Of a DNA stretch of 33,849 nt, positions 6,050 to 22,697 are shown one piece after another (position 1 is the stretch's first letter; the number at the start of each line of letters is the position of its first letter). The notes beneath the pieces were generated by a model, which was not told the origin of the DNA, searched no databases, and was given only the letters and a program-made list of their open reading frames with translations. The stretch is from Candidatus Falkowbacteria bacterium (lineage in GTDB: Bacteria; Patescibacteriota; Patescibacteriia; UBA11705; JABHMO01), in NCBI GenBank assembly GCA_018674305.1, contig JABHAL010000015.1, forward strand, positions 94,683 to 128,531, in the 5' to 3' direction. The position numbers and the translations under genes are program-made.

Positions 6050-6126
6050 TGGGGTGAGCGACGGGACTTGAACCCGCGGCCACTAGCGCCACAAGCTAGT
6101 GCTCTACCAACTGAGCTACGCCCACC
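6050..6126 (-). tRNA. tRNA-His (GTG)
   Basis: Complete cloverleaf. The acceptor stem GTGGGCG pairs with CGCTCAC (one G-U), the anticodon stem is CTAGC/GCTAG with loop TTGTGGC (anticodon GTG), and the T arm is GCGGG-TTCAAGT-CCCGT. The histidine-specific extra G-1 (6126) faces C73, and CCA is encoded. It lies about 77 nt after the attenuator terminator at 6204-6220 and upstream of hisS. Confidence 0.95.
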
Positions 6127-6183: not shown

Positions 6184-6203
6184 AACTTATATAATCAACA
6201 AAA

Positions 6204-6219
6204 GCCAGCTTTTGCTGGC
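6204..6219 (-). terminator. Attenuator terminator in front of tRNA-His
   Basis: On the minus strand GCCAGC-AAAA-GCTGGC followed by TTTTGTT. It lies between the His-rich leader peptide and tRNA-His. Alone it would be read as the antiporter terminator, but a consensus promoter (6305-6333) lies between the antiporter stop and this hairpin. Confidence 0.8.
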
Positions 6220-6251: not shown

Positions 6252-6296
6252 TTACTGACTTAAATGGTGATGATGAATTGTGTTCATTTGTTTCAT
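6252..6296 (-). CDS. His leader peptide, 14 aa
   Basis: The ORF encodes MKQMNTIHHHHLSQ, with four consecutive His codons (CAT CAT CAC CAT, 6264-6275), and ends in TAA just before the antiterminator. The ATG lies 9 nt after the promoter -10 box, so the RNA would have a leader of about 2 nt and no ribosome site. Other genes in this window show similar near-leaderless starts. An ORF in another frame starts at 6300 but has no His run. The arrangement closely parallels the enterobacterial his-operon leader peptide, but the downstream genes here are tRNA-His and perhaps hisS. Confidence 0.8.
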   Translation of the reverse strand: MKQMNTIHHHHLSQ

Positions 6297-20739: not shown

Positions 20740-20799
20740 CCATGAAGTCATGCCAAACTTATGATCCCAAACTAGCTTGGTTTCGCATGTACTTCATGG
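20740..20799 (-). other. Trailer hairpin that includes the tRNA-Asn CCA end
   Basis: CCATGAAGT-A-CATGC (20785-20799) pairs with GCATG-ACTTCATGG (20740-20753): 14 bp with one bulge. The first three bases are the CCA of the tRNA. The hairpin could compete with the acceptor end or guide 3' processing. Confidence 0.5.
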
Positions 20800-20871
20800 C
20801 TCCGGGACCAGGATTCGAACCTGGAACTTCGCGTTAACAGCGCGGTGTGTTACCAATTATACCATCCCGAA
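20797..20871 (-). tRNA. tRNA-Asn (GTT)
   Basis: The acceptor stem TTCGGGA pairs with TCCCGGA (one wobble), discriminator G, CCA encoded. The anticodon loop CTGTTAA carries anticodon GTT and the T arm is CCAGG-TTCGAAT-CCTGG. The D stem has one A-C mismatch and the anticodon stem one C-A at 27-43, so the fold is slightly weak but typical. It lies about 76 nt behind the Asn attenuator terminator. Confidence 0.93.
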
Positions 20872-20946
20872 ATAATTATCAATTCATTAATTTAACAAAT
20901 ACTAAATAAATTAAAAAAACAAAATCCAAATATTCATAATCAAAAA

Positions 20947-20965
20947 AACCAGCTTCTCGCTGGTT
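20947..20965 (-). terminator. Attenuator terminator in front of tRNA-Asn
   Basis: AACCAGC-GAGAA-GCTGGTT followed by TTTTT on the minus strand. Its stem and the downstream TTTTGATTAT resemble the tRNA-His attenuator terminator. Confidence 0.85.
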
Positions 20966-21003
20966 GAATATGTACTATTTTACACAAAATAAACTCAACC
21001 AAC
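20947..21003 (-). promoter_or_regulatory. Asn attenuator: antiterminator/terminator pair
   Basis: Segment 2 (GTTGGTTGA, 20995-21003) pairs over 9 bp (one wobble) with segment 3 (TCAACCAGC, 20959-20967), which is also the 5' half of the terminator. An inner stem TATTTT/AAAATA (20986-20991 with 20976-20981) extends the antiterminator. Segment 2 consists of the last codons and TGA stop of the leader peptide. A ribosome reaching the stop would mask it and permit termination; stalling at the Asn codons (21013-21027) would leave it free. Confidence 0.82.
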
Positions 21004-21051
21004 GTTTTGCAGGTTATTATTATTATTGGTTGTGGTTGCTGTGTATTTCAT
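20995..21051 (-). CDS. Asn leader peptide, 18 aa
   Basis: The ORF encodes MKYTATTTNNNNNLQNVG. Five consecutive Asn codons (AAT x4, AAC) lie at 21013-21027 and a sixth follows before the stop. The ATG lies exactly 9 nt after the -10 box, as in the His leader, and both share the surrounding ATGTATGAAA. There is no ribosome site, so translation would be nearly leaderless. The cognate tRNA gene lies directly downstream. Confidence 0.83.
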   Translation of the reverse strand: MKYTATTTNNNNNLQNVG

Positions 21052-21059
21052 ACATTTGT

Positions 21060-21088
21060 AATATAGCAAATTATCTAACTTCTGTCAA
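21060..21088 (-). promoter_or_regulatory. Promoter of the tRNA-Asn attenuator
   Basis: TTGACA (21083-21088), 17-nt spacer, TATATT (21060-21065). The -35 box lies 5 nt after the stop of the upstream gene, as for the tRNA-His module. Confidence 0.9.
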
Positions 21089-21092
21089 GCCC

Positions 21093-22697
21093 CTACTCGT
21101 CCATCACTTCATCTTTCTTCTCTCGGAAAAACCCAAACAACCCTTCAAAGACCTCCATTAACAATTTAAATGGTGCATCAATTATAACATCTAGAAACAT
21201 TGCTAAAACATTTATCTTGGAAAATTTTCCTGACATCCAGCGGCCCATACTCACAAACGGCAAGGCAAAAAAGTCTATCAAGGCAGTAAGTAAATTGTCA
21301 CGCCGATCAACAACCAAAAGCTCCTTGACCGGTCGACGGATTCTAATTCCAAAGAAACTAACTAAAGTTAAAAACAGAACAAATATTAAACTGCTAAAAA
21401 AGTTGAACTCCAATTTATTCAATCCCCAGAAAATTACCATCAATGAAAAAACAAAGCTCAAGGAGTAAATAAAGTGGAACATAAAATTCGTAACTTTGCC
21501 TCTGCGTCTCGGATGTTTAAGCTCATAAGTTTTTCCCTTGCCCTCATCAAATACAATCTGGTCGATTTCGGTTATAATCTTTTTGGTGTTTTCTTTTTTC
21601 GGCATGCGGATCATAATAGCCACAAAAAACATCAGAACTGGTGGGAAGAAAACATTAATTGCGCCTGCAGTATAATCAATTGCCCCCGCTAAATAAAAAT
21701 CCATTGGTAATTCCAGCGATAAGGCTAAAATCATTTTTGTAAAAAAAACATAAATAATACTTCGAACTACACCACGACGAAGTTTAACATTCACTCCTTT
21801 GTAACGCTTGTTGATAGCTTTCTTTACCTCTGCCTCCAATGTTTCGCGGTCAGCCATAAGCTGATCGGTTTTGCCATGATTTGATTCAATAACATCTCGA
21901 ATAATCCAAAATATTATAGCTTTCTTTTGTAAAATCTTATTAAATGGTTTAACCCAAGGGTGATGCAGCTGTTTCTCCAATTCCATTTTTACCTTGTCAA
22001 TATTATTAGCAATTGTTTGAATCACTTTCTCGTCTGCATTTTTCCAATTTGGATAATATAAATTCAACAACATGGTCCGCATCATAGCCGCGTCCCATTT
22101 GAATAAAGCTCGGTAACAAGCAATATAGACTTGTAATTCCTTTTCTTTCTCATCTACGCCATTGTCCTTCAATTGAATTCTGGGATTATAAACTGAGAAC
22201 ATTGCTGTAACTAAAGCCTTTTCTTTACTTGGAGGAATTAGGGCTGCTTCAATCTCAACAGCTGCCATCTCCAAAAAGTATCGGTAAGTTTTTTTATCCA
22301 CTCGTCCGTCTATCTCTTTTATTCTGGTTAGCAATGAATTATATTTCTGAATTATTTCATCTACTTCATCTACCATTTCAAGTGGTACTTGGCTTTTTAT
22401 GTAACCACCACGAATAATTTCCTTTAATAAATGCTTAGCTAGATTTTCTTGGTGATAATTATCTAACAAGTAGTTCTCCATGATCACCTTTTCATATAAT
22501 AACTTTCTTTTTAAAATTCTAAAAATCCCATTCTTGCGGACAAGATGTTCTTCCTGATAATCAACGGCATTGCGGACCTTCTCGTAAACTAACGAAGCTT
22601 TACCAATGACTGCGCTGACCTTGAGCATTTCCCCAGACCCAAGCTTAGCTTTTTTATTTTGCAAGTTTTTAATCAACTTACTTAAGACTTTTGACAT
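21093..22697 (-). CDS. Large membrane-anchored protein of unknown function, 534 aa
   Basis: I recognise no family. Residues 1-305 are soluble, Lys/Glu-rich and predicted mostly helical. Hydrophobic segments follow at about 313-335, 350-370, 400-425 and 428-450, then a basic amphipathic stretch (GIRIRRPVKELLVVDRRD) and a hydrophobic C-terminal tail (INVLAMFLDVIIDAPFKLLM) ending in charged residues. The N-terminal half is probably cytoplasmic. No Cys-rich or nucleotide-binding motif is seen. The start is not supported by a Shine-Dalgarno site; ATG 22697 is the first in frame. The gene is followed directly by the tRNA-Asn attenuator promoter. Confidence 0.7.
   Translation of the reverse strand: MSKVLSKLIKNLQNKKAKLGSGEMLKVSAVIGKASLVYEKVRNAVDYQEEHLVRKNGIFRILKRKLLYEKVIMENYLLDNYHQENLAKHLLKEIIRGGYIKSQVPLEMVDEVDEIIQKYNSLLTRIKEIDGRVDKKTYRYFLEMAAVEIEAALIPPSKEKALVTAMFSVYNPRIQLKDNGVDEKEKELQVYIACYRALFKWDAAMMRTMLLNLYYPNWKNADEKVIQTIANNIDKVKMELEKQLHHPWVKPFNKILQKKAIIFWIIRDVIESNHGKTDQLMADRETLEAEVKKAINKRYKGVNVKLRRGVVRSIIYVFFTKMILALSLELPMDFYLAGAIDYTAGAINVFFPPVLMFFVAIMIRMPKKENTKKIITEIDQIVFDEGKGKTYELKHPRRRGKVTNFMFHFIYSLSFVFSLMVIFWGLNKLEFNFFSSLIFVLFLTLVSFFGIRIRRPVKELLVVDRRDNLLTALIDFFALPFVSMGRWMSGKFSKINVLAMFLDVIIDAPFKLLMEVFEGLFGFFREKKDEVMDE

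Follow-up and report, generated by a model that had tools for sequence, protein, structure and literature searches.

The tRNA-Asn gene of a Candidatus Falkowbacteria bacterium is preceded by a short, Asn-rich open reading frame (ORF) and by competing RNA hairpins, which very probably constitute a ribosome-mediated transcription attenuator acting on the very tRNA by which its own control codons are decoded. Since the product is the tRNA reading these codons, the arrangement would form a negative feedback loop on Asn-tRNA supply. Ribosome-mediated attenuation is known for amino-acid operons, through the his, trp, leu and pheA leaders. To our knowledge, the gene regulated in this way has always been a protein gene, which is usual rather than mechanistically required, and the regulated gene described here, tRNA-Asn, departs from those targets. 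We analyzed the locus within a stretch of 33,849 nucleotides from contig 15 of a 1.28-Mb genome, referred to as the window.

The Asn leader locus

The original prediction had described a promoter, an 18-codon ORF with an Asn run and a sixth Asn codon, a 9-bp antiterminator and a 7-bp terminator with a T run. All of these are present on the minus strand in that order, followed by tRNA-Asn:

21083..21088, minus strand: -35 box TTGACA (scan; 11/12 matches together with the -10 box, spacer 17 nt)
21060..21065, minus strand: -10 box TATATT, 8 nt before the leader ATG
20995..21051, minus strand: leader peptide ORF MKYTATTTNNNNNLQNVG with its stop codon, 18 codons (sequence)
21026..21032, minus strand: segment 1, CAACCAA, which can pair with TTGGTTG of segment 2
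21013..21027, minus strand: sensor, five consecutive Asn codons (sequence)
21006-21004, minus strand: sixth Asn codon, two codons past the five-codon run
20995..21003, minus strand: segment 2, GTTGGTTGA, the antiterminator 5' arm, containing the stop codon
20959..20967, minus strand: segment 3, TCAACCAGC, partner of segment 2, or of segment 4 via AACCAGC
20942..20965, minus strand: intrinsic terminator AACCAGC-GAGAA-GCTGGTT plus T run (scan; kept in relatives)
20797..20871, minus strand: tRNA-Asn(GUU), type 2 (U11) (ARAGORN; Rfam RF00005)

By its sequence, TTGACA-N17-TATATT is a predicted sigma70 promoter. The leader codons read ATG AAA TAC ACA GCA ACC ACA ACC AAT AAT AAT AAT AAC CTG CAA AAC GTT GGT TGA. 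The antiterminator pairs GTTGGTTGA with TCAACCAGC over 9 bp including one G-U, and the predicted helix reaches 12 pairs. The terminator hairpin occupies 20965-20947, of which 20953-20947 is segment 4, and the T run continues to 20942. We also found an alternative pairing absent from the original prediction, between CAACCAA at 21032-21026, just 5' of the Asn run and reaching into it, and TTGGTTG at 21002-20996. The downstream tRNA does decode the leader's codon, as had been proposed: both ARAGORN and Rfam RF00005 return tRNA-Asn(GUU), and a search of the genome, in which all 39 tRNAs were typed, identifies it as the only tRNA-Asn. The gene upstream of the locus (21093-22697, 534 aa) is unannotated and gave no match in a Pfam search; its closest named relatives are in Candidatus Falkowbacteria metagenome-assembled genomes (MAGs), which makes the organism a Patescibacterium.

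Leaders in related genomes and the role of chance

We considered synteny as a guide to related loci and rejected it, as the homologs of the upstream gene in L023 and L025 are not followed by tRNA-Asn. Given this uninformative neighborhood, the tRNA itself was taken as the search key. BLAST with tRNA-Asn reached close relatives only, and a pattern spanning the anticodon arm and T arm was used instead. Searching 240 class genomes with this pattern and reading the flanks, plus a phylum sample, gave 81 class loci. The relatives are about 250 genomes of the class, mostly MAGs of tiny uncultivated bacteria, and are themselves related, so that counts among them are not independent; the window's genus is represented by one genome and its family by five.

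The tRNA-Asn genes recovered are of two types. Type 1 (37 genes) has C at position 11, with a D stem of GCTC or GCGC, and type 2 has U11, with GTTC, GTTT, GTTG, GTAT, GTAA or GTTA in the 40 genes counted, to which the phylum sample added four. None of the 37 sampled type 1 genes is preceded by a leader. An in-frame Asn-run leader precedes 42/44 type 2 genes, nearly always accompanied by a terminator, so the original prediction, which had staked itself on the leader persisting in relatives that keep the tRNA, is supported across about 250 class genomes. Under a strict score (at least 4 Asn in 8 codons, ATG start), leaders were scored at 35/40 type 2 genes vs 0/37 type 1 genes (Fisher p about 1e-16). 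This split is kept within the cell in genomes that encode both types, for example G042, G008, G009, G100 and G174.

Together with one frameshifted locus, the 42 in-frame cases make 43 leader-bearing loci, spread over 20 families. In the frameshifted locus (L095, G015; about 60-120 nt before tRNA-Asn at 1162), a one-base frame change at an A7 run splits the ATG from the Asn run, and may be an assembly error, decay or a slippage site. In L030 (G002), the type 2 tRNA-Asn is kept and the leader is lost, and in L103 and L175 the automatic terminator calls are weak. Within the window's family, G001 encodes the leader MKQIQTNNRNNNCKQTLAG before tRNA-Asn; at the level of the order, MKLYLTQFSANNNNGQPR in G008 and MKYSRKNLDNNNNNSRPALFS in G009 occupy the same place. 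Outside the class, the type 2 pattern matched once among about 350 genomes (L168), and this gene lacks a leader.

The promoters of these loci share a geometry. Almost all relatives have -35 boxes of the TTGAC type (mean match 5.5/6), the leader ATG follows the -10 box at 5-10 nt in 38/41 loci, and only 4/41 leaders have a Shine-Dalgarno-like motif. Bacterial transcripts normally begin about 7 nt past the -10 box. Because the ATG lies 5-10 nt past that box, the transcript is predicted to begin 0-3 nt before the ATG, and the leader message is probably leaderless.

In an AT-rich genome such as this one, AAT repeats arise easily, and a chance AAT/AAC repeat lying beside an unrelated terminator, without any regulation, is one alternative reading. 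However, 5,000 dinucleotide shuffles of the 420 nt upstream of the tRNA yielded no equally Asn-rich ATG ORF (Asn in 8 codons). The runs mix AAT with AAC, are in frame and are broken by other codons: leaders average 5.8 Asn codons, and AAY triplets in frames 0, 1 and 2 number 239, 33 and 17 over 41 leaders. Their position relative to the ATG, the stop codon and the terminator is kept over 20 families, while type 1 tRNA-Asn genes lack the leader even in genomes with both types. Conservation already refutes the chance reading, to which we give next to no probability. The earlier judgment that chance is very unlikely is thus upheld, both by the shuffles and by conservation in relatives.

We also scanned the short ORFs upstream of 155 tRNA genes in four genomes (G000, G137, G154 and G174) for cognate codons within an 8-codon stretch. 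Among these 155 genes, only the four type 2 tRNA-Asn genes scored at least 5 cognate codons in 8 (6, 6, 8 and 5). Comparisons with non-cognate amino acids reached 5 in seven cases and never exceeded it. The window's tRNA-His scored 4, as did three other genes whose matches look like chance. Single-genome statistics thus suffice for the Asn case, and conservation carries the His case, described below. Beyond type 2 tRNA-Asn, and tRNA-His in the window's family, no cognate leaders were found at the other tRNAs among these 155.

Two side observations concern the flanks of other tRNA genes. In front of several tRNA genes lie broken 5' halves of the same tRNA (L002, L006, L008 and L012 of the same genome, and the window at about 6185-6140), whose D loops often carry inserted palindromic repeats, as in GCGGGAGTAGCTTAGTCCCGACGTC...CGGGATTGGTTAGAGCGC, which occurs twice before tRNA-Gly. 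About 60-150 nt upstream of tRNA-Arg(UCU), which lies at 678 in L003, an ORF encoding MTSPEFTARR and a stop overlaps with a terminator hairpin, and a second promoter follows it. We rejected this ORF as an Arg leader, since its codons CGC and CGT are not read by tRNA-Arg(UCU) and another promoter follows.

The predicted RNA switch

The original prediction had called for covariation analysis of segments 2, 3 and 4, and the alternation between them is indeed kept through sequence change. Segments 2 and 3 from the same locus pair with a mean energy of -17.1 kcal/mol vs -9.3 kcal/mol when swapped between genomes, and 0/20,000 permutations reach the value of the own pairs. The terminator arms vary between genomes (CCAGC, CCGGC, CCCGC and CCGCC types); with the 2:3 match kept while the arm sequences differ, compensating change must have occurred. 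In the 41 leaders, the partner of the terminator's 5' arm is the 3' end of the ORF. Pairing between segments 1 and 2 is weak on average (own -6.7 vs permuted -5.2, 0/20,000; 41 loci). It is clear in the window and in some relatives, down to -22 kcal/mol, and may be absent in some loci.

The pairing of segments 2 and 3 bears on whether the short ORF could instead encode a functional Asn-rich micropeptide that is co-transcribed with the tRNA by happenstance. The ORF is open, and Lys is the second residue in 23/41 leaders. Yet the peptide is unconserved outside the Asn run, and it is the RNA pairing over the ORF 3' end that is conserved; we regard a micropeptide as very improbable.

For an attenuator, the arrangement of leader and hairpins is apt. 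The stop codon lies inside or adjoining segment 2 in 40/41 leaders, segment 2 begins a median of 30 nt from the first Asn codon and about 8 nt from the last, and the terminator starts 16-48 nt (median 27, 41 leaders) from the stop codon. The spacing of segment 2 and the position of the stop fit what a ribosome-operated switch requires.

In equilibrium folds, which take no account of kinetics, placing the ribosome on the first Asn codon brings the median terminator probability over 41 loci to about 0.01, and placing it on the stop brings it to 0.96. Both limits (terminator below 0.2 when stalled and above 0.8 at the stop) are passed by 28/41 loci. In about a quarter of the loci the terminator is still largely formed at equilibrium in the stalled state, and kinetic folding must therefore be assumed there. 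In the window, a ribosome on Asn codons 1-4 leaves an antiterminator of 11-12 pairs (free-RNA fold -19.1 to -16.1 kcal/mol); once the ribosome is at Asn 5 or at the stop, the terminator forms. In these models, the antiterminator and terminator are mutually exclusive, as ribosome-mediated attenuation demands.

From this architecture we infer that the leader is translated, that ribosomes stall on it and that readthrough follows, as well as the physiological role, and propose the following mechanism. RNA polymerase would start from TTGACA/TATATT almost exactly at the leader ATG, with a ribosome translating the leader close behind. When Asn-tRNA is plentiful, the ribosome would clear the Asn run and reach the UGA within segment 2; there it would hide segment 2, segments 3 and 4 would pair, and transcription would end before tRNA-Asn. 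When Asn-tRNA is scarce, the ribosome would stall on the Asn codons and the free segment 2 would capture segment 3, so that no terminator would form and tRNA-Asn would be made. The circuit would thereby set tRNA-Asn output by the speed of Asn decoding, with slow decoding giving more tRNA and fast decoding less. What would be gained from more tRNA when free Asn itself is lacking is not obvious.

The probable regulated product, its likely charging route and a parallel His operon

A scan of the window revealed no promoter-like site on the same strand between the terminator and the tRNA. In 21/41 loci, no more than 30 nt separate the end of the terminator from the tRNA, so few that there is little room for another promoter. 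Transcription of the tRNA therefore has to pass the terminator. The true target could still be a protein gene further downstream, asnS or another, with the tRNA merely first in the operon. Such control has precedents in the synthetase genes with leader peptides (PMC2965389, PMC1262725), asnS lies 60-90 nt after the tRNA in G232 and G137, and in the His case the order is likewise tRNA-His and then hisS. However, these are the only two of the loci examined in which asnS directly follows. The window genome carries asnS on a different contig and without an Asn leader, and none of 20 regions examined upstream of asnS has an Asn leader of its own. The downstream genes are unrelated between loci (asnS, glutamine synthetase, an MnmA-like tRNA thiolase, an ABC transporter, kinase-like and unknown genes), and hundreds of bases separate the tRNA from the next gene at several loci. 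The tRNA is therefore the common target, and we consider a downstream protein target improbable.

The two tRNA types differ in the company they keep. Counting as true AsnRS those proteins over the TIGR00457 cut-off, AsnRS is encoded in 35/40 genomes with type 2 tRNA vs 7/29 with type 1 only, and the five type 2 genomes without it are 73-88% complete. In genomes at least 90% complete, the figures are 34/34 vs 5/24 (Fisher p about 4e-11), in a comparison of related genomes whose type 1-only set is those fetched rather than a random draw. GatB is encoded in nearly all genomes. Given the co-occurrence of AsnRS with type 2 and the near universality of GatB, AsnRS most likely charges type 2, and the indirect Asp-tRNA/GatCAB route most likely uses type 1. 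The varying type and number of tRNA-Asn within the class suggests gain and loss of the AsnRS route.

These data also speak to a biosynthetic reading, in which the controlled tRNA-Asn would be the carrier for tRNA-dependent asparagine synthesis, with Asp-tRNA-Asn amidated by GatCAB. A carrier tRNA induced by starvation would make physiological sense, and the near-universal GatB would supply the enzyme. Against this, it is the controlled type that accompanies AsnRS, in all 34 near-complete genomes with that type, the uncontrolled type prevails where AsnRS is missing and the indirect route is obligatory, and the window genome and G154 have the controlled type alone. We judge this reading improbable as well. 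In our preferred model, the controlled type would serve asparaginyl-tRNA synthetase, and the second type, found mostly in genomes without AsnRS, would be unregulated. Across the tRNA sets of G137, G154 and the window genome (G000), type 2 stands alone in G000 and G154, with both types elsewhere. In those two genomes the attenuator would govern the only tRNA-Asn, and a basal level must therefore be allowed; in two-type genomes, it may set the contribution of the AsnRS route.

The original prediction had cited a second codon-tRNA match in the window, at tRNA-His, and this match proves real:

6333-6328 and 6310-6305, minus strand: His-leader promoter, TTGACA and TATAAT (sequence)
6252..6296, minus strand: His leader peptide MKQMNTIHHHHLSQ with its stop codon (sequence)
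6200..6219, minus strand: His-leader terminator GCCAGC-AAAA-GCTGGC-TTTT (sequence)
6050..6125, minus strand: tRNA-His (ARAGORN)
5778-4471, minus strand: hisS, next after tRNA-His

The GCCAGC of this terminator also pairs with GCTGG directly after the His leader stop. The leader is kept before tRNA-His in two other genera, as MKKVTAIHHHHHHQ (L035, G001) and MNSANQNHHSHHCRLLLD (L034, G004). Judged from sequence, the His leader, terminator, tRNA-His and hisS form a putative attenuated operon parallel to the Asn case, and three genera of the family have kept it. A strict His pattern matched 13/240 class genomes, with no leader there except in G000 and G004. In a sister family (L158, L159 and L160), we noted about 300 nt before tRNA-His (at 1495) a long, conserved and apparently structured region without a His leader; it ends in the terminator GGGAAAAGAGAG..TTTTTT, has no Rfam match over threshold, and is a candidate for an unknown cis-regulatory RNA.

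Like the his, trp, leu and pheA attenuators, the Asn locus has a leader ORF with a run of regulatory codons, a stop in or beside segment 2 and exclusive 2:3 and 3:4 pairings. Unlike them, it would regulate a tRNA gene rather than a biosynthetic enzyme, sense Asn, be probably leaderless and reside in a Patescibacterium. Synthetase genes can also be under leader-peptide control, as at pheST. In bacilli, His leaders precede the hisS paralogs hisS* and hisZ (PMC2965389), and trpS and leuS have leader-peptide control in Streptomyces (PMC1262725). These systems similarly tie the decoding and charging of one amino acid to its charging machinery, and the window's tRNA-His-hisS arrangement is close to them; the difference is that here the tRNA comes first and is usually the sole common target.

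T-box riboswitches control asnS, asnA and hisS in Firmicutes, and share with the Asn locus a choice between terminator and antiterminator that answers to the charging of one tRNA. Here, in contrast, a translating ribosome would be the sensor and the output is a tRNA rather than a synthetase. Rfam covariance models gave no T-box motif or specifier loop in the window or in ten loci scanned permissively, where only tRNAs were over threshold. The Rfam amino-acid leader families, such as Thr_leader (RF00506), belong to the same mechanism class; none scored over its gathering score, the best being Thr_leader at L114 with 27 bits against a cut-off of 55. In the open-access literature, a scope that gives no proof of absence, we found neither leader-peptide attenuation of a tRNA gene nor an Asn leader.

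Taken as a whole, the data make it likely that the class has an attenuator on a leaderless mRNA by which a tRNA gene regulates itself through the decoding speed of its own codons. This attenuator would act as a gate on the AsnRS route in genomes with two routes, would be the first known case in which ribosome-mediated attenuation controls a tRNA gene, and would have a second, His version in the window's family. The supply of tRNA in bacteria is usually ascribed to promoter strength, gene copy number, and growth-rate or stringent control. Codon-specific feedback on a tRNA gene would, if true, be a new layer of this control. It would also allow Asn-tRNA supply to be read out directly in the cell, in bacteria that are believed to rely on other organisms for amino acids. 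With control strictly confined to the AsnRS-linked tRNA-Asn and absent from the amidation-linked one, the balance of the two charging routes becomes testable.
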